Assembly: GCF_014217215.1 (NCBI RefSeq)
Contig: NZ_CP056080.1
Coordinates: 1,922,001 to 1,986,000, forward strand
Direction: 5' to 3'
Origin: Rothia nasimurium
Lineage (GTDB): Bacteria > Actinomycetota > Actinomycetes > Actinomycetales > Micrococcaceae
Length of the DNA stretch: 64,000 nucleotides
This document shows positions 7,331 through 44,366 of the stretch, one piece after another (the first letter of the stretch is position 1; each line of letters starts with the position of its first letter). The notes under the pieces are model-generated. The model worked only from the letters and a program-made list of their open reading frames with translations. It was not told the origin of the DNA and did no database searches. The translations under genes were made by a program, and so were the position numbers.

Positions 7331-8410
7331 TTACTTCTTTACTTTCTCGACCAGTTGCAGAGCTTGGGGGACATTAAATAACCACGGTACCCGCTTTTCT
7401 AAAAGCACAGCGGTAACCAGAGGTAATCCTACTCCAGTAATCAGTGAAATTACCATGAGAATAACGGGGTTATCGATCCCGCTACGCACCAGTAATATTC
7501 TGGTCAGCGGAGTAATCAGCAAATGCATAAGGTAAATGTGCAGGGAATAACGGCCAATAAATTCTAGGGGCCTAAAAGAGATCCATCGAGAGAGGGAGGC
7601 AACGGCAAGAACTACACCCGTAACACCGGTAAGTGTTGCGATAATCCCGAACAGAATACTGGAACCGGTGCGGTAGGGGTCATCGAGCGTGGGTGTAGAG
7701 ATATAAAGTTTCGACAGAACCATCGATAGGAAAACAATAAGGCTGACCAAAGCAACCGAGATAGTTACCGGAGGCCGTGCCTTATTGAGCTGGCCCATTC
7801 GCTCGGTGCCGATGAGCGCACCAACTACAGCAAACAGGTAAATCGCTACACCGCTACCGAAGATCACAGCATAGTTCACGCCCCACAGCACTACCGCACA
7901 AGCAGCGCATACGGTCATCGATAAGACCGCTCGAACCTTTGTTTCCCAGGGCCTAACGATAACGAGGCACCCGAAGATAAAGACCATCCACGGCAGATAC
8001 CACAGGTGCGCAAGGGGGCGCGAAAGGTTGGCGACCTCAGCCCAGGTTGTTCCCCCGTTGGAGAACCGCGCTCCCAGCACTTCTGCGGTGCCCTGTATCA
8101 ATGACCACACCAGGTAGAGATAGATAAACCCGATGATGCGGTTGGCCGCGTACACCAGGCTCCCCCGCCTTCTCCAGGAGCCGGGTATGTTAAACCCGAA
8201 AAGTAAGGCGAACAGCGGCATGTGGACGCTGTATAGAGCAATATTTAGGCGCTTATACATTTGGGGGGCATCTTGCGTCAGCCCGGCCTGCATAATACCA
8301 AGATTGATGTGGCCAAGAACTACCGCAAGGATAGCGATTCCTCGGAGGGCATCGAGAGATCTATTGCGTTGGTTTATCCCGGAGGAATATCTTGAATCGC
8401 TTCTAGGCAA
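7331..8410 (-). CDS. membrane acyltransferase family 3 (OafA-like)
   Basis: 359 residues, nearly all hydrophobic with about ten predicted TM helices. The N terminus carries the family hallmark RNRSLDALRGIAILAVVLGH (about 16-35) with the conserved Arg and the helix-1 His. Enzymes of this family add acetyl or other acyl groups to membrane-linked sugars, peptidoglycan or antibiotics. In a polysaccharide operon O-acetylation of the repeat unit is the most likely job (inference). No extra SGNH domain is present. It is the first of two such genes in the operon (the other is 10396-11442), so two different acetylation positions may exist. Confidence 0.85.
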   Translation of the reverse strand: MPRSDSRYSSGINQRNRSLDALRGIAILAVVLGHINLGIMQAGLTQDAPQMYKRLNIALYSVHMPLFALLFGFNIPGSWRRRGSLVYAANRIIGFIYLYLVWSLIQGTAEVLGARFSNGGTTWAEVANLSRPLAHLWYLPWMVFIFGCLVIVRPWETKVRAVLSMTVCAACAVVLWGVNYAVIFGSGVAIYLFAVVGALIGTERMGQLNKARPPVTISVALVSLIVFLSMVLSKLYISTPTLDDPYRTGSSILFGIIATLTGVTGVVLAVASLSRWISFRPLEFIGRYSLHIYLMHLLITPLTRILLVRSGIDNPVILMVISLITGVGLPLVTAVLLEKRVPWLFNVPQALQLVEKVKK

Positions 8411-11449: not shown

Positions 11450-12670
11450 CTATAACGCTAAATCGGTGGAGGTCAGAGAACCTGGCTGAGACTTTTTAGG
11501 CCGCGCAGTCAGGCTCAGGGCAAGACCGACAGCAAAGACCCACGGCAAGGTCAGCATCACTTCGCCCAGACGCCAGCTACAGACCGCCAGAAAAACAGTT
11601 GCCGCTTCCGCAGTCAAGACGCGTCGGCCCTTTACGATTCCGTGTTGCTTCCAGATAAATACAGACAGCAGGGTTAGCCCCGCAACCAGTACCAGCCAGA
11701 TAACGCCGCCCTCGACCAGAAGGGTCCAGTAGGAGTTGTGGAAGAAGAAAGGACGGTCCAAGATATTTACCGTTGCCTGGCCCATTCCCCAGCCCGACCA
11801 AGGGGCCGAAGAAACCTTCTCCCAAGAGGCCTCATCGATACGGGAGCGCAACTGATCGGTACCTGTCCGGTCACCGAAAATGGGGTTATCCGCAAAGTTC
11901 GTCTGAAGCCACTCGAAGAGCCACGCGACGAAAGCACCCAAACCAAATTTCAGGACAACATTTACTTTCTGGGCAAACAGAATCCACAAAACACCGATCA
12001 AAAGGCCGGCCATACTGGTTCGTGAGCCGGTCTCCCACAGAAGCGGTAGGAAAATTACCAAGGTCAGGATACGATGGCTAGTTTTGGGGAAGAGACCGAA
12101 CATCAAAATGGGGATAATGCCGTAGTAGAGGCCGGATACGTTCTTATCATTCAGCCAGCCCGTAAGCGCACCGCTATAGTTATTTGGCGCAATACCGGCG
12201 TAGAAAGCAAGCGCATTGACCACTAGACCGATAGCCAGACCCAAGATGAGCGATCTGAAATCGATACGACGGTCAGCAATCAGCAAGAGAACCGCAATCA
12301 AAATCGAGATTCGGGCCAGACGCCTACCCACATCATCAGGAGTTGAGATACCGACGTTCAGCGATGTAATTGCCACGTAGGTTAGACCCAGAAGTAGCAC
12401 TGCGGCAAAAAGGCTCCGGTTAGGGACGTCAAAACGCGAAGGCTTACTGATTCTCAAGAGGGTAAGGATTGCAAGAACCATCAACCCCATCGGAAAGCCA
12501 AGAAGGGGAACACCCATCGTTACCAGGAGCGCGCCGGCAATTACTTCAACCATCACCAAGGAGCCAGTGCCCTCGGCAAGGATCCGTGCCTCTTGACCCA
12601 GTGCAGCGGTAAATCTGCTCAGTCGCTCTTCAGCGCTAATCTTCTGTTCCTGTGTATCTGAAAAGCTCAC
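11450..12670 (-). CDS. O-antigen polymerase/ligase-like membrane protein (Wzy/WaaL family)
   Basis: 406 residues with about ten TM helices and one large hydrophilic loop (about residues 250-310). Near its end is the family pattern GWGMGQ ... FFHNSYWTLLVEGGVIW, the H-NS-x-L-x-x-G signature of the O-antigen ligase (Wzy_C) domain. Such proteins join undecaprenyl-linked repeat units or transfer glycans. In this operon a polymerase role is likely, because wall attachment is usually done by LCP enzymes in Gram-positive bacteria. It overlaps the upstream GT4 gene by 4 nt. A polymerase and a ligase cannot be told apart from the sequence. Confidence 0.8.
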   Translation of the reverse strand: MSFSDTQEQKISAEERLSRFTAALGQEARILAEGTGSLVMVEVIAGALLVTMGVPLLGFPMGLMVLAILTLLRISKPSRFDVPNRSLFAAVLLLGLTYVAITSLNVGISTPDDVGRRLARISILIAVLLLIADRRIDFRSLILGLAIGLVVNALAFYAGIAPNNYSGALTGWLNDKNVSGLYYGIIPILMFGLFPKTSHRILTLVIFLPLLWETGSRTSMAGLLIGVLWILFAQKVNVVLKFGLGAFVAWLFEWLQTNFADNPIFGDRTGTDQLRSRIDEASWEKVSSAPWSGWGMGQATVNILDRPFFFHNSYWTLLVEGGVIWLVLVAGLTLLSVFIWKQHGIVKGRRVLTAEAATVFLAVCSWRLGEVMLTLPWVFAVGLALSLTARPKKSQPGSLTSTDLAL

Positions 12671-13800
12671 AGTTCCCTACCCTTGTTATATGAGCTCACG
12701 ATGCCCTCGGCCATGCGTGAAATAGATATCCATTCAAAGTCTGTCTGCGCACCGGTAGTTTGTTCTACCATGCGCTGGGCGACCGTTCTGACGGCGGTCT
12801 GGCGGTTCATCTGGTTCAGTGAAGGCACAAGCTCCTTGCCGCCCAGAATCTCGGGGTTACCCCCAACCGCTGTTGCCACAACAGCAAGCCCTGCGGCCTT
12901 AGCGTCCAGCAGGGTGTAGGAACAGTTCTCCCACACCGAAAGCTGAACCAGCAGGTCCGACCGGCCCATAGCCTCTACGGGGTCCACAAAACCGGCAAAG
13001 ATCACAGAGTCAGAAAGCCCGAGGTCCTTCACCTGTTTCTCCAGGTCTTCTTTCAAGTCGCCGCTACCAGCGATTTCCAGGGTTGCCCCTGGAATGTCAC
13101 GGCGCACGGCGGCAAAAGCCTCTACCAGGACGTCCAGCCCTTTCTCGGGAGCTAGCCGGGAAAGCGATAGCACGCGCAGGGCACCGGGAGCAGGCTGAAC
13201 GCGGCAGGCCTCAACAGCTGAGGCGACCTGCGCTGTGTCAACACCGTTATAGACCACCTCGACCCTACGGGCACCCCACTTGCGTTTCATCTGGTCAGCG
13301 GTGGACTGAGAAACAGCTAGCGCACCGTCTGTACCCCACAGGCGCACGCGGTGTACCTGCTCCATCAGCCGCGAGCGCCAAGAAGCGCCGTGGTAGACTG
13401 CATCGTCCCCGGCAATACCGTGCTCGGTGGTGAATACCCGAGGGATATGGGTCCCCCTGTGCCGTAGCTTGTTAACCTTACGCAGGTTGACGGTCGCAAC
13501 GGCGACCACATCGGCGTAAGCCAGGTGGCTGTGCACGATTGCTGGTTTGAGTTCGTCGATGACGGTGTTGAGGGTTGCCCGGGAGGTCGCAAAACCTGAG
13601 GCCGTTCCAAAGTCAGCTTCGCGGACTTCGGTACCGAGTGCCTTGAGTCGGGCGGAGAGAGCACCGGGTGGGCAGAGAACTACTAGGCGGTAGCCGGGTA
13701 GCCCGGCCTCAGCAAGATCGCTGATGTGCCGGGCTACGCCACCAAAATCGGGAACCGGAACGCAGTGAAGCGCTACCGGCAGGTCGCTGTTTACAGCCAC
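12667..13800 (-). CDS. glycosyltransferase family 4
   Basis: 377 residues. VPDFGGVARHISDLAEAGLP gives the N-terminal GT-B glycine-rich loop. VLSLSRLAPEKGLDVLVEAF and LLVQLSVWENCSYTLLDAKA give the donor domain; the E-x7-E pattern is altered to ENCSYTLLD, a conservative Glu to Asp change at the second position. VVYNGVD is the linker usual in GT4. It overlaps the polymerase gene by 4 nt and the NeuB-fusion gene by 10 nt, so all three are translated as a block. Donor sugar unknown. Confidence 0.84.
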   Translation of the reverse strand: MAVNSDLPVALHCVPVPDFGGVARHISDLAEAGLPGYRLVVLCPPGALSARLKALGTEVREADFGTASGFATSRATLNTVIDELKPAIVHSHLAYADVVAVATVNLRKVNKLRHRGTHIPRVFTTEHGIAGDDAVYHGASWRSRLMEQVHRVRLWGTDGALAVSQSTADQMKRKWGARRVEVVYNGVDTAQVASAVEACRVQPAPGALRVLSLSRLAPEKGLDVLVEAFAAVRRDIPGATLEIAGSGDLKEDLEKQVKDLGLSDSVIFAGFVDPVEAMGRSDLLVQLSVWENCSYTLLDAKAAGLAVVATAVGGNPEILGGKELVPSLNQMNRQTAVRTVAQRMVEQTTGAQTDFEWISISRMAEGIVSSYNKGREL

Positions 13801-16034
13801 TTTTCCAGCCTATCCAGGGCAGTGAAGAAGCCTTCGCCGTTGTTGACGTGGCCCTGCCAGATTTCGGGGATAAAGGAGGAGTTGGGGGTGAGCTCGCGGA
13901 GCTGCTTGCCCAGAGCGGCCCAGTCTACGTCGCCTTCGCCCACCTGGACGCCTTCGCCGTCAACGCCTACGCCGTCGACCAGGTGCAGGTGGATAGAGCG
14001 GGGTGCGAGCAGGTCCACGGCTTCTGACAGCGGCATCTTGAGGAAGTTAGCGGCCAGCATGGTGTGGGAGATATCCAGGCAGAGGGCGGTGTCGTAGGTG
14101 TCGGAGAACTCTGCGGTGTCCTTGGGGTCAAGGAAGAGGTTGTGGTACTGCTGGCCGCCCATGAGCCAGGGGTAGGGGGGCAGGGTCTGAGCCGCGATAC
14201 GCACTCCTGAGGTATCGAGCTTGGCCAGTGCCTCGCCGATACGCTCATACTTGTCGGCACGGGCGGACGGTGCGATGTGGCCGTCCTTGGTGAAGCCGCC
14301 CATGGTGACGACCATGACCGGGTCGTCGTCCACGGTGAAGTAGCGGGTCAAATCGCGGGTGATGTCGATGGTGCGTTGGACCTCTGCGATGGAGCGCTCC
14401 CAGGTTTCCTGATCACGAGAAGCCAGGTCTACCAGGAAGTCACCGGCGAAGAGGTCAGGCAGGTGGGTGGTGAAAGACATGTCGAGCTTACGGTCGAAGA
14501 CCTCATCGATGTCGACTTCAAGATCCTTGTAGGAGAAGTGGAACTCCAGGAAGTCAGGCTCAGCGTCCTCAATCAGGGGCTTGTAGTCGTGGTAGCGGAC
14601 GGGCAGGCCCCAGGGGCGGTCAAACGTGAAGTCGCGGCGGGTCACGAGGTCGTCCTTCAGGTCGCCCTCAAAGAAGAAGGTACCAGCTTCAACCTCACGC
14701 TGCATGGTGCGGCCCAGAAGCTGGGGCAGGTAGTTGGGCTGCAGACCGCGGCCGGGTGACTTAACCTCGACGTCCGCCTCGGTCACGACCTCACCCTTAG
14801 CGATGGTGCGGGTAGCAACCAGTGACTTAGCAAGGTTGACGCGGTTCATGAGCTCACCGGTGGAGACCTCGCGGGGGGCTGAGGTACCGATAGATTCCTC
14901 TACCTCACGAATCTGCTGCACCATAGCCTTGAACTCGTCAGGCAGCAGGGAGACGGTGTGGTCGTTACCTTCGAGAGTCTTATCGATGGTGAAGTGCTTT
15001 TCAATAATCTTGGCACCGCGGGCAACGGCTGCGATGGGCACGTGGTAGCCGCGTTCGTGGCCTGAGTAGCCCACCAGGCACTGGCCGATTTCAGCCAGGC
15101 GGTCCATGTAGGCCAGGTTGACGTCCTTGAAGGGCGCGGGGTAGGTGGACTGGCACTGTAGCAGGGCGTAGGAAGCGCCCAGGGAGCGCAGCAGGTTAAC
15201 CGACTCGCGGATTTCTTCTTCGCGGCTCATACCGGTGGAGACCAGCATGGGCAGACCGCGGGAGGCCATATCGCGGAGCAACTCGTGGTTGGTCAGGTCG
15301 GCTGAAGCAACCTTGAGGCCCTGGATACCGTAGTCGACCAGAGCCTGGACCGAGGGGCCGTCCCAGGGGGTGCACATGATGTCCATATCATGCTGTTTGA
15401 CGTGGTCAAAGACCTCGTACATCTGGTCTACGGTCAGGGAGAAGCGGGAAAGCAAATCGAGGGTGTACTGCACACCCAGGTCTTCGCCGGCTGACTTTGA
15501 GCCCTTCTGTCGGTAGAGGGCATCCATGTCGCGAAGCTGGAACTTAACGGCGTCTGCACCGGTATCAACCGCCAGGTCAACCAGGCGCTTGGCCAGGTCA
15601 ACGTCGCCCTGGTGGTTGTTGCCGATTTCGGCGATGATGAAGGAGGGTGAGTCTTCGGTGATTTCGGTGCGGCCGATACGCAGCACGTTCTGCTCGTCCA
15701 TGGCGATAGCAACCAGGTGGCCGCGTTCGTCGACCAGGGGAAGGTGGCTAATACCCTTGGCAAACTCGCCCTGAAGCTCTGCGGGCTCCGAACCGATGGG
15801 AGCGGTCTTGACGCCCTGGTTAGCTACCTCAAGGGCACTGGTCTCAAGAGATGCGGTGGGGTTGGCGATGAGCCAGCGGCGGAAGTCACCGTCTGACAGG
15901 GAGCCCTTAAGCACGCCTGATTCGTTGACCAGGAAGATAATACGCTGCCCGTTAGCAGAAATCTTCTGCAGGGCGGTGAGTACCGGGTCCTCAGAGAAAA
16001 CGATGTAGGGGGTGATATTACGTTCGATAATCAT
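13791..16034 (-). CDS. CBS - NeuB (nonulosonic acid synthase) - SAF - TIM-barrel fusion protein
   Basis: 747 residues from ATG 16034, 4 nt after the cytidylyltransferase stop. The longer open frame to 16115 lies inside that gene and is not used. Four parts are seen. Residues 1-120 look like a CBS pair (RIIFLVNESGVLKGSLSDGD; ISHLPLVDERGHLVAI). Residues 130-375 are NeuB-like, with AEIGNNHQGD, VKFQ, and EKHFTIDKTLEGNDHT binding metal, PEP and substrate. Residues 400-462 are an antifreeze-like SAF domain (SLVATRTIAKGEVVTEADV). Residues 470-747 are a xylose-isomerase-like TIM barrel (EFHFSYKDLEVD, LCLDISHTMLAA, IHLHLVDGVG). NeuB enzymes condense PEP with a six-carbon amino sugar to make sialic, legionaminic or pseudaminic acid. 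The TIM barrel could be an epimerase or isomerase supplying the substrate (inference). Standard NeuB proteins are about 340-350 residues, so the extra domains are the notable feature. Confidence 0.82.
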   Translation of the reverse strand: MIIERNITPYIVFSEDPVLTALQKISANGQRIIFLVNESGVLKGSLSDGDFRRWLIANPTASLETSALEVANQGVKTAPIGSEPAELQGEFAKGISHLPLVDERGHLVAIAMDEQNVLRIGRTEITEDSPSFIIAEIGNNHQGDVDLAKRLVDLAVDTGADAVKFQLRDMDALYRQKGSKSAGEDLGVQYTLDLLSRFSLTVDQMYEVFDHVKQHDMDIMCTPWDGPSVQALVDYGIQGLKVASADLTNHELLRDMASRGLPMLVSTGMSREEEIRESVNLLRSLGASYALLQCQSTYPAPFKDVNLAYMDRLAEIGQCLVGYSGHERGYHVPIAAVARGAKIIEKHFTIDKTLEGNDHTVSLLPDEFKAMVQQIREVEESIGTSAPREVSTGELMNRVNLAKSLVATRTIAKGEVVTEADVEVKSPGRGLQPNYLPQLLGRTMQREVEAGTFFFEGDLKDDLVTRRDFTFDRPWGLPVRYHDYKPLIEDAEPDFLEFHFSYKDLEVDIDEVFDRKLDMSFTTHLPDLFAGDFLVDLASRDQETWERSIAEVQRTIDITRDLTRYFTVDDDPVMVVTMGGFTKDGHIAPSARADKYERIGEALAKLDTSGVRIAAQTLPPYPWLMGGQQYHNLFLDPKDTAEFSDTYDTALCLDISHTMLAANFLKMPLSEAVDLLAPRSIHLHLVDGVGVDGEGVQVGEGDVDWAALGKQLRELTPNSSFIPEIWQGHVNNGEGFFTALDRLEKWL

Positions 16035-16038
16035 GGTT

Positions 16039-16758
16039 TTAGCCTTCGTTTTCTTCTGATGCGAGGGTGGTGAGCAGTTGGTGCTCTGCGACGGAGAAGT
16101 CGATGGGAGCGTCAATGTCTACGCCTTCGACCTCATCGAGCATGAAGAGCTCGATGTTGCCGCCCAGTCGGTTGTGCAGGGTTTCGTAGAGCTCAGTCTT
16201 GGTGATGTACATGGAGCCGTTTTCGCGGTAGCGGAAGGTCTCACGGGTGAGTTCCTGACGGCGGGGGCGGGCCATGACCTCGTACTGGGCAGTCGGTGGC
16301 TCGGTAGCAGCCCAGATAAAGGGGCCGATAGGGATAACGCCCACCATTGAATCCGATGCAGAGGCAGCGAACTGGCGGATAGCCCGGGCCAGGGTGCCGG
16401 GCAGGCGGACGGGTGAGGTCGCCTGCAGGAGCATGACGGCGTCCGGACGTTTGCCCTCCGCTGTATAGAACTCGATAGCGTGCTCAATCACCGGTTCGGT
16501 GGCGGTAGTGTCTTCTGCTAGATGGGCCGGGCGCATGAAGGGTACCTCTGCCCCGTACTGGCGGGCAATATCAGCTAGCTCCGCGTCGTCGGTTGAGACC
16601 AACACGTCAACCAGGTGCTCGCCTTCCAGCTCAGCCTTTGCGGCAAGGGCCTGTTCAATGGTCCAGGCGACGAGAGGCTTACCTGCGATGGGTTTGAGGT
16701 TCTTTCGGGGGATTCCCTTGGACCCACCGCGAACGGGTATCACGCAGAGAATGCGCAT
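16039..16758 (-). CDS. acylneuraminate cytidylyltransferase (CMP-nonulosonate synthetase)
   Basis: 239 residues, the length of the NeuA/PseF/LegF family. The nucleotide-binding start is ILCVIPVRGGSKGIPRKN (residues 3-20), followed by KPLVAWTIEQAL and VSTDDAELADIA. It activates a nonulosonic acid with CTP to give the CMP-sugar. It lies directly before the NeuB fusion gene (4-nt gap), which confirms a nonulosonic acid module. Which acid is made is not decided: no NeuC epimerase and no PseB/C/H/G or Leg set is present in the window, so the precursor must come from elsewhere or from the extra domains of the fusion protein. Confidence 0.88.
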   Translation of the reverse strand: MRILCVIPVRGGSKGIPRKNLKPIAGKPLVAWTIEQALAAKAELEGEHLVDVLVSTDDAELADIARQYGAEVPFMRPAHLAEDTTATEPVIEHAIEFYTAEGKRPDAVMLLQATSPVRLPGTLARAIRQFAASASDSMVGVIPIGPFIWAATEPPTAQYEVMARPRRQELTRETFRYRENGSMYITKTELYETLHNRLGGNIELFMLDEVEGVDIDAPIDFSVAEHQLLTTLASEENEG

Positions 16759-16763
16759 GCTCT

Positions 16764-17837
16764 TTAGTTCTCCAATGATCGAGTGAGGTATTCAGCGATG
16801 TGCTGTGCTGGTTCCTGTGCTGGCACCGGGGGCGCCGGGGTAGGAGCGCTCCCCCACTGGTTCATACCGTAGCGTTCCCAAAACTCGGTAACCCAGGCGG
16901 GTGGGTTAGGGTGATATACCCAGGCGGGCACTCCGCGCAGTGCAGCTTCTAGCACACCGGTTGAGAATATTGACACAACCGGGTTATTCACCTGGTTGAG
17001 GGGCTGCTGGGAGCGGTCAATATCGATTCCTAGTTTACTCATAAGAGAGTGGGTTAAGTGGGAAAGTTTATCTTTCTCACTCGGATGCGGTCGATAGATA
17101 GCCTTGTGCTCGCGCGTGAACTTGATGCTCGCTCGTGCGAAAGATACTCGAGGCAGCTCAGCCCCGTGCATCTGCCCCAGAAAAATAGGGGTTTCGGCGA
17201 TAGCGGCGGGCTCTACCGGGGGCTTCTGAGCAGCCTCCCAGAAGAGCTGAGAACCAACTACGTCATAGGTGACGTCTTCTCTGCCTGTTACCCAGAATTC
17301 AGCGTCTGCCTGACTAAACGCAAGAAGGTGGGTACCAGGTGCTAGCGGGGGTGCGTAAGGGGTATGGAGACCGTGCTGGACGGTGATGAAGCGAGCACCC
17401 GTGCGTTGGGTGAACCGGTAGGCGGCAGCACCCCAGGCCATATAGTGCCCCAGGGCAAGAACCTGCTGTACTTCTTCTAACGCAGCGTCGAGGTCGGCTT
17501 CATCCAGTGCAGTAACCTGCCAGTTACCTTCAGGAAGGTGTTCGGTGACGTCTTCGGGTGCCCACACAGCATATGAACCTGGTACTAACCAACGGGCAGG
17601 CCTTATCAGGGACCCCAGGGAGGTCGGCGACGTAGAATCCAGAGCAAGCAGAATTTGCGGTTTACTACCGGGTACGTGAAGATACCCTGCCACAGAAGCA
17701 GGTGCGTCGGGCGAGGCATTACCTCCGCGAGCCCGAACGAAAATACTCTTGAGCGCGTTTTTTGCCCGACGGAGCAGATGGGCGTTAGCCTGCCACTTGC
17801 TCCAGGCCTCGAGATCTGCAGGATAGATTAGACCCAT
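16764..17837 (-). CDS. GT-B-like transferase, candidate nonulosonate or polyol-phosphate transferase
   Basis: 357 residues, no TM segment. The C-terminal half has YRPHPSEKDKL (about 246-256) and VVSIFSTGVLEAALRGVPAW (about 287-306). This layout, an RPHP motif then a Ser/Thr-Gly-x-x-EA motif, is shared by CDP-glycerol glycerophosphotransferases, polysialyltransferase-like and Kdo/sialyltransferase-like GT-B enzymes. An HG pair (VQHGLHTPY) precedes it. It starts the nonulosonate block, 5 nt ahead of the cytidylyltransferase gene, so it is a good candidate for the enzyme that uses the CMP-sugar (inference from position). Not assigned to a named family with certainty. It overlaps the upstream gene by 10 nt. 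Confidence 0.55.
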   Translation of the reverse strand: MGLIYPADLEAWSKWQANAHLLRRAKNALKSIFVRARGGNASPDAPASVAGYLHVPGSKPQILLALDSTSPTSLGSLIRPARWLVPGSYAVWAPEDVTEHLPEGNWQVTALDEADLDAALEEVQQVLALGHYMAWGAAAYRFTQRTGARFITVQHGLHTPYAPPLAPGTHLLAFSQADAEFWVTGREDVTYDVVGSQLFWEAAQKPPVEPAAIAETPIFLGQMHGAELPRVSFARASIKFTREHKAIYRPHPSEKDKLSHLTHSLMSKLGIDIDRSQQPLNQVNNPVVSIFSTGVLEAALRGVPAWVYHPNPPAWVTEFWERYGMNQWGSAPTPAPPVPAQEPAQHIAEYLTRSLEN

Positions 17838-18835
17838 AGGGTATTCATTTTCTGTGCGCGATGGAAGAAAGTATGTTCAGCCTGGCTACGCTTAAGGCCG
17901 GCAGAGCGAATTGAGTCGCTCCAGCTAGGGTCAGCGATAATACGCTGGCACAGTTCAGTCAGCTCTTCGGTGCTCTGATAGAGGAGAACCTCAGAACCGA
18001 CCTCGTAGAACTCCTCAACGTCAGGGCGGTCAATGAGCTGGAGTCCGTTCATACCGGGCACCTCAAAAGTACGCATAGCCAGACCCGCCTGCAGGCCGTG
18101 GACATTGAGCGAGGCTGCCGCTGCAGCCTGTACCCGATAGGCTTCAGCCAGCGGGATATCGCGTTCAGCTGGCAAATCGGGGCGTTTAAGCTCCCAGGTA
18201 CGAAGGCGGTCAAAGGGGTGGTGTGACCAGGCCCGCCCGTACACGCGTACCGGAACACCGGCGTCCTTAAGAGCAAGCATCATTGTTTCGCGATTTTCGT
18301 AGCGAGAACCGACAAAGACGATTTCTGGAACGCGAGTACGAGGGAAATCTGCCAGTTTGGGGTCGTAACCATTAGCAACGAAGTGAGCGTTAATACCTTC
18401 TGTTGCGAAGGCTTCGGCTTCAGATCGGGCGTAGCTGACAACCGTAGGGAGGCTACGTAGAAAATCCCGGGTGTAGCGGTGACGCTTAAGATCGTCGTAC
18501 AGCCAGAGGATATAGGGGATTTTTCGGTCGGTGACAGCCTGCCAGAAGTTATCGCCTAGGGTATCTGCTTTGATGACGATGAGTTTATCGGGGTTCACCT
18601 CTCGAAGAACCTGGAGGGCTTTGACTGTAGCCGCTTTTTCAGCAGCTTTCTGCCCGTCAAAGCCAACTTTTGAGGGTAATTCGTAGAGAGCTTTATTGCG
18701 TAGCTTGTCTTTGACCGTATCGAAGGCATCGTAGCGGTGTACCGTTACGTCGTAGCCTAACTGGGTAAACCCATCTGCGATGGAATAGCAGTAGCCGTGG
18801 AAAGCAGGGCTGATGATGAGGAGTTTCTCTGCCAT
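17828..18835 (-). CDS. CgeB-type glycosyltransferase
   Basis: 335 residues. The N-terminal domain LLIISPAFHGYCYSIADGFT lacks the usual GT4 glycine loop. The mid part YILWLYDDLKRHRYTRDFLR and IVFVGSRYENRETMMLAL, and the end AEHTFFHRAQKMNTLW, match the CgeB / Glyco_trans_1_2 pattern, in which the final His-Thr-x-x-x-Arg is characteristic. Members are found in spore-coat maturation and in surface glycan clusters. It overlaps the following transferase gene by 10 nt and abuts the upstream GT2 stop with no gap. Donor unknown. Confidence 0.75.
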   Translation of the reverse strand: MAEKLLIISPAFHGYCYSIADGFTQLGYDVTVHRYDAFDTVKDKLRNKALYELPSKVGFDGQKAAEKAATVKALQVLREVNPDKLIVIKADTLGDNFWQAVTDRKIPYILWLYDDLKRHRYTRDFLRSLPTVVSYARSEAEAFATEGINAHFVANGYDPKLADFPRTRVPEIVFVGSRYENRETMMLALKDAGVPVRVYGRAWSHHPFDRLRTWELKRPDLPAERDIPLAEAYRVQAAAAASLNVHGLQAGLAMRTFEVPGMNGLQLIDRPDVEEFYEVGSEVLLYQSTEELTELCQRIIADPSWSDSIRSAGLKRSQAEHTFFHRAQKMNTLWV

Positions 18836-25206: not shown

Positions 25207-26190
25207 TTAGTTAGCTCTACCATCAAACAGGCTAGTCACTGACCCCTCGTCAAAGACTTCCTTGATGGCACGTGCCAGCAGAGGCGCGATTGAGAGCACA
25301 GTCAGATTATCGAAAGTCTGTTCGGGCTTCAGCGGCAGGGTGTTAGTAACAACAACTTCGCTGGCACCGCAGTTTGCCAGGCGCTCAGATGCAGGATCTG
25401 AGAAAACAGCGTGGGTTGCTGCAATGATAACGTCCTTAGCGCCGTTCTCCTTAAGAACGCGCACAGCACCGGCGATAGTTCCGCCGGTATCAATCATGTC
25501 GTCGATGAGCACGCAAGTACGCCCCTCGATGTCACCCACAACGGTCTTTGAAACAGCCTGGTTGGGCACATTGATGTCGCGGGTCTTGTGCACGAAGGCC
25601 AGCGGTGCGCCGCCCAGCAGCTCGGCCCACTGCTCAGCAACACGCACGCGACCGGTATCGGGTGAAACCACGGTGACGTTATCGGTATCGACCTTGCTTG
25701 CTACGTACTCAGCGAGCAGGGGAATAGCCATCAGATGGTCAACGGGCCCGTCAAAGAAGCCCTGGATCTGAGCGGTATGTAGGTCAACGCTCATCAGGCG
25801 GTGGGCACCGGCGGTCTTGTAGAGGTCAGCAATCAGGCGGGCTGAGATGGGCTCACGGCCCTTGTGCTTCTTATCCTGACGCGCATAGGGGTAAAAAGGA
25901 GAAACAACAGTAATTGAACGGGCTGATGCACGCTTGAGCGAGTCAATCATAATCAACTGTTCCATGATGGCATCATTAATCGGTGCCGGGTGTGACTGAA
26001 TTACGAATGCGTCCTTCCCTCGCACCGACTCGTTGAACCGTACATAGGTCTCACCGTTGGCGAAGGTGTAGGCGGATGAAGGAAGAACTTCGTTCCCCAG
26101 TTCCGCTGCGATTTGTTCAGCGAGTTCGGGGTGGGCGCGGCCTGAGACCAGCGCCATCTTCTTTTCACCTGGATTCGTAATCTCAGTCAT
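25207..26190 (-). CDS. prs: ribose-phosphate pyrophosphokinase (PRPP synthetase)
   Basis: 327 residues, normal for class I PRPP synthetase. Visible motifs are DLHTAQIQGFFD (the divalent cation/ribose-5-P region), VVSPDTGRVRVAEQW (PRPP/5-phosphate loop) and CVLIDDMIDTGGTI (PRPP-binding signature). It makes PRPP from ribose-5-phosphate and ATP for nucleotide, His and Trp synthesis, and in actinobacteria also for decaprenyl-phosphoryl-arabinose. It lies 5 nt behind glmU, the usual actinobacterial pair. Confidence 0.97.
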   Translation of the reverse strand: MTEITNPGEKKMALVSGRAHPELAEQIAAELGNEVLPSSAYTFANGETYVRFNESVRGKDAFVIQSHPAPINDAIMEQLIMIDSLKRASARSITVVSPFYPYARQDKKHKGREPISARLIADLYKTAGAHRLMSVDLHTAQIQGFFDGPVDHLMAIPLLAEYVASKVDTDNVTVVSPDTGRVRVAEQWAELLGGAPLAFVHKTRDINVPNQAVSKTVVGDIEGRTCVLIDDMIDTGGTIAGAVRVLKENGAKDVIIAATHAVFSDPASERLANCGASEVVVTNTLPLKPEQTFDNLTVLSIAPLLARAIKEVFDEGSVTSLFDGRAN

Positions 26191-31704: not shown

Positions 31705-32478
31705 TTGCTACACCAGCGTACAACCGGCCTCACCGCCACGCAATTCGCCACACTCCTCACAGCCCTCAACACCCACCTCACCTGGACCAAACCAGCCGAA
31801 AAACCCCGCAGACTTACCCTGGCTAAGGCCCTCAAAGTAACACTACTGAGCTACCGACACAACATCACTCAAGAAGCCCTCGCCCACCTCTTCGACGTCT
31901 CACAGCCCACCATCTCGCGGACTATCAGCACCATCGAAAAAGCCCTCACCCAGGTTCTCAAACCACTGAACAGACCCTTGCAAGAGGGGCTAAAAGCATC
32001 AGGTTCCCTCGTGATTGACGGAACCCTTATTCCCACCTGGAACTGGCGTTCACAAGGGAAAAGAAACTTCTCTGGTAAGCATAAACGAGCAGGATTTAAT
32101 CACCAGGTCATCTGCACCCTCGATGGCAGGCTCCTGGCTATCACTGACCCGTTGCCTGGTGCTAGACATGATGCTCATGCTTTCAGAGCCCATAGTCTAG
32201 ATCAACTACTTGATTCTTCGACTTTGGCTGATAAGGGCTACGTGGGTCTGGGGTTAGTTACCCCGGCAAAGCGTAAGCCTGGGCAGAAGCTCACCAAGGA
32301 GCAGAAGCGAAATAATCGGGTGCTGAATCGGCTACGGTCGGTGGTGGAGAGGGTCATCGCACGTATCAAGACCTGGCGGATTCTTCATACGGGGTTCAGG
32401 CGGCCGTTGGGGTTGTATGGGCGGGTGTTTTCGGTGGTGCGGGGTCTGGTGTTTTTGGCTGCTGGTTACCCCTTATGA
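31705..32478 (+). CDS. IS5-family transposase
   Basis: 257 residues. The N-terminal third has a helix-turn-helix (NITQEALAHLFDVSQPTISR). The DDE catalytic residues are visible as VIDGTLIPTW (first Asp), TLADKGYVG (second Asp) and NRLRSVVERVIARIKTW (Glu). The only available start is TTG 31705, because an in-frame TAA lies at 31678 and no ATG or GTG follows. The frame is complete with no frameshift, so the enzyme may be active. Codon use is high-GC and unlike the AT-rich gene it interrupts. Confidence 0.9.
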   Translation: MLHQRTTGLTATQFATLLTALNTHLTWTKPAEKPRRLTLAKALKVTLLSYRHNITQEALAHLFDVSQPTISRTISTIEKALTQVLKPLNRPLQEGLKASGSLVIDGTLIPTWNWRSQGKRNFSGKHKRAGFNHQVICTLDGRLLAITDPLPGARHDAHAFRAHSLDQLLDSSTLADKGYVGLGLVTPAKRKPGQKLTKEQKRNNRVLNRLRSVVERVIARIKTWRILHTGFRRPLGLYGRVFSVVRGLVFLAAGYPL

Positions 32479-43124: not shown

Positions 43125-44366
43125 TTACCAGTTACCCTTCCAGTTTGAGTCGTGGTAGTTGGCGAAGGGGATGTTCCAGTCGCCATAACCGTCGTCGGGG
43201 TCAGCCTGGGGGTAGCCGGTGTTTACGGTCTCCACAACGTCGCCTACACCGAAGGTGTTGTAGAAGAACTTAGCGTCTTCAGGGAGCATACCGATACAGC
43301 CGTGGGAGACGTTTACCCGGCCTACCGATGACCAGGATGAGGGCGAGGCCTGATGCACGAATACACCGCCGGAAGTCAGGCGGGAAGTCCAAGAAGCCCA
43401 GAAAGGCTCGTAGTAGTAGGGGTCACCAGGAGCCAGGTTAAGGGAGCCAGAGTTAAAGTAGTAGCTCTCAGCCTTTTCCATGATGACTAGCTGGCCCACT
43501 ACTGAAGGCCAGTCAGCATTTCCCAGGGTGATGTATGCTTCGCGCACCATGACATCATCTACGTACATTTTGATGGTCTTGGTGTTGTTATCTGCAAAAG
43601 CGTAGCGCTTATTCCAGGTTTTGAAGGTACGAGTGGTGGTGTGGTTACCGATCATGCCGTTGCCGACATCGAGACCAAAAATATCAATGGTGACAGTTAC
43701 GGTAGAGTTAGTGGCCCATTTATCTTCAGGGCGATAACGCACCATGTAATCGCTGTACCAACGGAACTTACCGGCTTGATCGCCTCCACCCTTCACGGTG
43801 ATGCGCTTTTCTACTTCAGCCTTGTTGAGCACGGGCTCAGAGAAATTGAACTGAATGATTTTACCGATACCGTAGCTGGCTCCATCTTCAAAGTTCATGA
43901 GGGCGTCTACTTCGTAGGCAGCGGAGACAGTAGAGAAGGTGCTCTCGCCAGTTCCTGCGGTACCTGCAGCGTCTTCTGCTTCCCACTCTACGGTGTAATC
44001 GCTGTGGAAGAGCATACGGTCGGTGGAGGTCCAGCTCTTACCGTCTGCAGCTAGCTCACCGGCGAGTTCCTCACCCTCCGCGGTGGTGACAGTAACCTTG
44101 GTGAGTGTTGAATCAGCAGTGGTAACGGTGACGGTCTCGATGGGGTTGATTTCTACCTCGTCGAGGGCGGGGTAAACCTCTACAGTACCGGCAAACTTTA
44201 CGGTAGGAGTGGGGCTTGAGCTTGCAGTCGCAGTGGCACTTGCGCTGCTGGTACTGCTCTCGGGTGTGGAGCAGGCAGCAAGAGTCATTGTGCCCAGAGC
44301 TCCTACGGTCACGAAGGACCGACGGGTAAAAGTGTCTCGGTTGGCTGCGTTGATGGGGTTGACCAC
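43125..44366 (-). CDS. L,D-transpeptidase lipoprotein (Ig-like domains plus YkuD)
   Basis: 413 residues from GTG 44366. The N terminus has TRRSFVTVGALGTMTLAACS: twin arginine and a lipobox LAAC, so it is exported and lipid-anchored. A Ser/Thr-rich linker, two Ig-like domains (about 60-250) and the YkuD catalytic domain follow. The catalytic region is GVFVHQASPSSW then VNVSHGCIGML, with His and Cys as in mycobacterial LdtMt2. The residue after the Ile is Gly, where Asn or Arg is usual. These enzymes make 3-3 crosslinks in peptidoglycan or attach lipoproteins. Terminator follows. Confidence 0.9.
   Translation of the reverse strand: MVNPINAANRDTFTRRSFVTVGALGTMTLAACSTPESSTSSASATATASSSPTPTVKFAGTVEVYPALDEVEINPIETVTVTTADSTLTKVTVTTAEGEELAGELAADGKSWTSTDRMLFHSDYTVEWEAEDAAGTAGTGESTFSTVSAAYEVDALMNFEDGASYGIGKIIQFNFSEPVLNKAEVEKRITVKGGGDQAGKFRWYSDYMVRYRPEDKWATNSTVTVTIDIFGLDVGNGMIGNHTTTRTFKTWNKRYAFADNNTKTIKMYVDDVMVREAYITLGNADWPSVVGQLVIMEKAESYYFNSGSLNLAPGDPYYYEPFWASWTSRLTSGGVFVHQASPSSWSSVGRVNVSHGCIGMLPEDAKFFYNTFGVGDVVETVNTGYPQADPDDGYGDWNIPFANYHDSNWKGNW

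Follow-up and report, generated by a model that had tools for sequence, protein, structure and literature searches.

A conserved CBS-NeuB-SAF-TIM-barrel fusion of Rothia nasimurium, a probable Kdn-type nonulosonic acid synthase

A 64,000-nucleotide stretch of the Rothia nasimurium genome (contig NZ_CP056080.1, positions 1,922,001 to 1,986,000; here the window) encodes a 747-residue protein in which a CBS pair, a NeuB catalytic barrel, a SAF domain and a C-terminal TIM barrel are joined. We show that this fusion is a real, conserved family, a NeuB variant with one genetically studied relative, the NeuB of Serratia. The fused protein is probably a Kdn-type (2-keto-3-deoxynononic acid) synthase. 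A first-pass annotation had proposed a one-protein route to a nonulosonic acid under control of a ligand-sensing CBS pair. Such a route is plausible, but the annotation missed both the spread of the family and two substitutions in the synthase active site, which are the more telling feature.

The plus-strand reading of positions 13791-16034 contains many stops, and the gene lies on the minus strand. The maximal mechanical open reading frame reaches a TTG at 16115; the ATG start was preferred because this extension overlaps the gene for a cytidine monophosphate (CMP)-sugar synthetase (16039-16758) and because most listed homologues are 747-748 aa long. The four parts recognized at first pass within this single frame were each over the Pfam cut-off: NeuB (residues 151-384, 7e-78), AP_endonuc_2 (495-745, 1e-21), SAF (403-458, 2e-10) and CBS (9-55, 1e-6). 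Of the CBS pair, the first repeat alone passes the Pfam cut-off and the second is weak. The profiles of the arabinose-5-phosphate isomerases GutQ and KpsF match across both repeats, though far below their cut-offs (residues 12-110 and 18-110, respectively; 22 and 19 bits vs. cut-offs of 481 and 204), the rest of KpsF/GutQ being without a match, and a homologue from Ensifer has two CBS stretches. With NeuB (PF03102) and SAF over the cut-off and the catalytic residues kept, the protein belongs to the NeuB superfamily. It scored below the cut-offs for both N-acetylneuraminate synthase (TIGR03569, 310.8 vs. 399.65 bits) and pseudaminic acid synthase (TIGR03586, 235.3 vs. 340.25 bits).

The fused proteins were aligned in 317 rows of at least 700 aa, 80 from genomic loci (the window and Ensifer included) and 237 from protein searches, the rows being related and partly overlapping between sources. 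The controls were 30 loci from a phylum draw (221 of 396 genomes with a match): 16 with SAF, 12 without SAF and 2 fused. Meningococcal NeuB (N-acetylneuraminic acid, or NANA, synthase; 349 aa; PDB 1xuu) resembles the window protein in having NeuB and SAF and in its catalytic and metal residues, but it is without the CBS and TIM parts. Its residues E25, Q55, K129, Y186, S213, H215, E234 and H236 are kept in the fused, SAF-bearing and SAF-less groups. The window protein differs at two places. In the PDB alignment R314 aligns with S426 (the 4ipi and 4ipj chains carry Ala and Lys instead), hence the Arg314 of TIGR03569-type SAF domains is absent. This position is Ser in 315 and Cys in 2 of the 317 fused rows; in the phylum draw it is Arg in 16/16 SAF-bearing ordinary NeuBs and Ser in both fused proteins. 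The place of F112 is Trp in 316/317 fused rows, Phe or Tyr in 16/16 SAF-bearing controls and Trp in 12/12 SAF-less NeuBs. A third difference, Ser at the place of N184, is uninformative because 15/16 controls share it. According to earlier work, the N-acetyl group of N-acetylmannosamine is positioned by this Arg, and activity is lost in the R314A variant but retained in R314K (reported in PMC6795526). With the catalytic residues kept and this Arg lost, the fused enzyme looks catalytically complete yet without the acetamido contact. Judged from the alignment, the loss of Arg together with F112W points to a product without an acetamido group, namely Kdn.

In an unrooted tree of the NeuB core, 28 fused rows from several phyla formed one clade (99/95), and the SAF-bearing and SAF-less groups formed one clade each; the tree does not state which NeuB group is nearest to the fusion. 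The SAF-less clade comprises twelve NeuBs (L096-L098, L101-L105, L107-L110), which, like the fused family, have Trp in place of F112. Nine of them belong to a single genus, perhaps Streptomyces (a guess), whose genomes measure 6-10 Mb, and two genomes of these nine loci have a second NeuB. Streptomyces walls are reported to contain Kdn polymers (PMC11481543). These loci do not support the idea that the Streptomyces makers of such polymers have the fusion: all nine encode NeuBs without SAF and barrel.

A survey across genomes, named as a check at first pass, showed that the fusion is no one-off. A protein search with the window protein scored 7997 candidates at 0.55-1.75 times the query length (7949 with E < 0.001). 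Among the best 120, 117 are 746-757 aa long and 3 are shorter pieces; the listed homologues come from Rothia, Kocuria, Arthrobacter, Sinomonas, Microbacterium, Micrococcus and others, and databases call them 'N-acetylneuraminate synthase family protein'. Scanning genomes gave 288 confirmed stretches, of which the best 80 were kept, all Actinobacteria by title; the nearest to the window was R. nasimurium, at 98-99% protein identity. Besides the window, 79 loci contained the fusion at full length. The Ensifer homologue is 48% identical to the window protein over the full length. When it was used as the query, 119 of 120 listed proteins were 747-781 aa long, and the matches included Parvularcula, Comamonas, Xanthomonas campestris, Methylobacillus, Desulfobacula, Saprospiraceae and Synechococcus. 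The full-length homologues in many loci and several phyla rule out a chance join or the joining of two genes by a sequencing error. The fusion is no plasmid or phage oddity either, since most of the query was present in 1/102 matching plasmid records and 0/3 phage records.

The barrel was found at E up to 1e-15 in 6/394 Actinomycetes genomes, each time as part of an open frame of 712-781 aa. A search with the barrel only gave 276 matches; among the 120 listed, many are evident fusion pieces (they retain NeuB or SAF, or lie on short contigs) and a few are barrel-only proteins on long contigs (e.g., P0129 and P0159). In one locus from another class of the phylum (L094), NeuB-SAF-barrel lies just downstream of a synthetase gene and the contig ends within the barrel. 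Only 11 open codons precede the NeuB match there, hence the CBS part seems dispensable. Tessaracoccus massiliensis (L064, genome G417) carries two fused copies with equal scores, ∼19 kb apart in opposite orientation (C14:23295-23999 and 43248-43952), which reflect either a duplication or an assembly effect.

The barrel has the ketose-epimerase (D-tagatose 3-epimerase type) fold, and its best matches, in fold as well as in sequence, are to sugar epimerases or epimerase-like proteins. In ketose 3-epimerases two metal-bound Glu act as opposed bases. The fused family departs from this arrangement: by alignment with MJ1311, Gln616 takes the place of the first metal/base Glu in 317/317 rows. Identity of the barrel to the D-tagatose/L-ketose 3-epimerases of MJ1311 (3wqo) and T. 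maritima (2zvr/5b7y) is 12-18%. Nevertheless, 27 polar or Trp barrel residues, those of the metal site included, are the same in at least 314/317 rows. That the barrel is an isomerase is a possibility to which we give somewhat less than even weight; if so, it may feed the NeuB site.

No standard precursor pathway had been noted in the window at first pass, and this stood: Pfam and/or NCBIfam scans of 26 genes in the window gave no NeuC, PseB or LegB over the cut-off (7331-8410, 25207-26190 and the genes beyond 32.5 kb lie outside the scan, and the search for PseB did not extend to the whole genome). The 2.53-Mb window genome has a single NeuB, and its sole PF02350 match, outside the window, is WecB (420 bits, cut-off 210) and not NeuC (88 bits, cut-off 236). 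LegB was over the cut-off in 0/26 fusion genomes, the window genome included, and NeuC in 0/25. The fusion is the only NeuB in 19/25 genomes. PseB was over the cut-off in 3/25, each of which has another NeuB, of ordinary size, at a distance of 5-13 kb within one contig.

The genetically studied relative is the NeuB of S. marcescens UMH9 (KL1), which carries an extra COG1082 domain and was cloned as an open reading frame of 2241 bp including 9 bp upstream (PMC9000132). The NeuB of KL1 and KL2 strains and the window protein are alike in length, in the fusion of NeuB to a COG1082 (sugar isomerase/epimerase)/AP_endonuc_2 barrel and in lying next to NeuA; they differ in phylum, and no CBS part is mentioned for the Serratia protein in the available text. 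Deletion of Serratia neuB lowered the sialic acid signal fourfold and abolished capsule production (PMC9000132). Capsules of KL1 and KL2 strains contained Kdn and N-acetylneuraminic acid (Neu5Ac) at ∼20:1, and the sugar matched a Kdn standard by several methods (PMC9000132); that Kdn is the main sialic acid in Serratia is repeated in PMC12077157. The extra NeuB domain was noted by the Serratia authors, who left its function open (PMC9000132). A literature search covering few subscription journals found, judged by the listed entries, nothing else on the fusion, its CBS part or its barrel, and nothing usable on CBS domains together with CMP-activated 3-deoxy-D-manno-octulosonic acid (CMP-Kdo).

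In the window the fusion sits in a Wzy-type polysaccharide cluster, which also encodes RmlA and RmlB (both over the cut-off), many glycosyltransferases, a Wzc-type kinase (eps_fam over the cut-off) and a Wzb-like phosphatase (below the cut-off). The neighbour taken for the CMP-activating enzyme at first pass was confirmed as a cytidylyltransferase by Pfam, and its gene ends 4 bp upstream of the fusion ATG (Table 1). In Ensifer a ManC gene lies directly upstream of the synthetase and the fusion. Scanning 48 members of the 357-aa GT-B protein against Pfam gave weak matches alone, in 1-2 members each, and the model of this protein has a predicted local distance difference test score of 92.9. It may be the CMP-Kdn transferase and is a candidate for a new CMP-nonulosonate transferase family. 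A family 11 glycosyltransferase (PF01531; 22285-23217, plus strand) lies on the opposite strand inside the cluster, and an IS5-like transposase (31705-32478, below the NCBIfam cut-off) lies beyond it.

Table 1. Features of the fused synthase and its neighbours in the window; the denominators of neighbourhood counts are loci with enough room on the contig
Feature	Position	Strand	Details
Wzy-like polymerase	11450..12670	minus	Wzy_C 27.2 bits, cut-off 31.7; 49/74 loci
Glycosyltransferase (PF00534/PF13439)	12667..13800	minus	directly downstream of fusion; 63/76 loci
Fused CBS-NeuB-SAF-TIM synthase	13791..16034	minus	747 aa from ATG; stop 13791-13793
AP_endonuc_2 TIM barrel	13794..14639	minus	residues 466-747; Q616, D654, H657, H682, H684 and E724 invariant in 317 rows
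Q616	14187-14189 (codon)	minus	within TIM barrel
SAF domain	14661..14828	minus	residues 403-458
S426 (place of R314)	14757-14759 (codon)	minus	within SAF domain
NeuB catalytic barrel	14880..15680	minus	residues 119-385; E136, Q166, K241, Y298, S324, H326, E345 and H347 kept
W224 (place of F112)	15363-15365 (codon)	minus	within NeuB barrel
CBS pair	15705..16034	minus	residues 1-110; Pfam cut-off passed by first repeat, KpsF/GutQ profiles reach residue 110 but score below cut-off
CMP-nonulosonate synthetase	16039..16758	minus	CTP_transf_3; best NCBIfam match PseF, below cut-off; directly upstream of fusion in 64/75 loci
357-aa GT-B protein	16764..17837	minus	without Pfam family; upstream in 64/73 loci
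Glycosyltransferase (PF13524)	17828..18835	minus	58/72 loci

We infer that Kdn is the product in Rothia. The NeuB part would condense phosphoenolpyruvate with an unacetylated hexose, most likely D-mannose, to Kdn, and the adjacent cytidylyltransferase would activate it to CMP-Kdn for a surface polysaccharide. The TIM barrel would be a metal-dependent aldose-ketose isomerase supplying the hexose (e.g., fructose to mannose), and the CBS pair, plausibly a ligand sensor, may sense a nucleotide or CMP-sugar. Production of Kdn is consistent with the Serratia protein of similar make-up, which is needed for sialic acid with Kdn prevailing (PMC9000132). It is also supported by the R314 and F112 changes, the scores below the cut-off for both TIGR models, the lack of NeuC or LegB over the cut-off, the conserved neighbourhood and the Ensifer ManC. 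More tentatively, and rather doubtfully as a whole, the one polypeptide could be a complete regulated Kdn factory, in which the barrel converts a central ketohexose (fructose or fructose-6-phosphate) to open-chain mannose through single-base isomerisation and passes the mannose on to the NeuB-SAF site, the CBS pair switching the enzyme off once CMP-Kdn is abundant.

Several points weigh against a Kdn-type synthase. We know of no product for any Actinobacterium with the fusion, and ManC genes turn up often in polysaccharide loci. The control NeuBs number only 16 and were picked by score within a single phylum draw, and the 317 fused rows carry the relatedness and overlap stated above. AGE-family (N-acylglucosamine 2-epimerase) proteins occur in 10/25 fusion genomes, PseB-like proteins at 285-303 bits (cut-off 408) in three more genomes (G409, G414 and G418), and in G402 and G404 the second NeuB comes with no PseB over the cut-off; the two equal fusions of G417 also complicate a simple picture. 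The likeness to Serratia is drawn from a published description of that protein. Some Neu5Ac is also made in Serratia (PMC9000132); exclusion of acetamido substrates therefore need not be strict. Finally, the routes to Kdn named in the literature at hand start from mannose-6-phosphate.

In a different division of labour, the synthase would use mannose-6-phosphate to make Kdn-9-phosphate and the barrel, which shares its fold with endonuclease IV, would be a metal-dependent phosphatase removing the 9-phosphate. We consider this unlikely: the best matches of the barrel are epimerases or epimerase-like proteins, bacterial NeuB normally takes free sugars (a statement that, in the text available, concerns N-acetylmannosamine), and a phosphatase could be encoded elsewhere in the genome. 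Slightly less likely still is an ordinary acetamido nonulosonate (Neu5Ac-like), with the barrel as an N-acetylhexosamine 2-epimerase replacing NeuC or AGE. The minor Neu5Ac of the Serratia capsule (PMC9000132) and the 25/25 genomes without NeuC over the cut-off would fit such a replacement, but the N-acetyl-placing Arg is lost near-invariantly, Kdn prevails ∼20-fold over Neu5Ac in Serratia (PMC9000132), and the Gln in the first metal/base position argues against two-base epimerisation.

The same Gln, in every row, is what one might expect of a barrel that is a non-catalytic scaffold or that acts after condensation, turning Kdn into another nonulosonate. The near-invariance of the 27 polar or Trp residues, the metal site among them, and the match of the Serratia sugar to a Kdn standard (PMC9000132) make this improbable. 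The first-pass suggestion that the second barrel prepares or alters the substrate may hold; an altered product is disfavoured by the match of the Serratia sugar to authentic Kdn. It is highly improbable that the 357-aa neighbour is a NeuC-like 2-epimerase supplying the precursor, in which case the fusion would be no self-contained route.

The frequency of Kdn in bacteria is contested between papers: Kdn capsules are called apparently uncommon (PMC9000132), and bacterial Kdn is called widespread in a table (PMC7845648). Annotation is no help in finding Kdn makers because the fused proteins bear the N-acetylneuraminate synthase name. The fusion together with the loss of Arg would be a signature allowing sequence prediction of Kdn makers, including Rothia, Micrococcus and Cutibacterium species, and the fusion offers a defined enzyme for assaying the role of the barrel. 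If the fused protein is indeed a Kdn factory, Kdn would be the product of many bacteria, spread over several phyla, whose present annotation points to N-acetylneuraminate.

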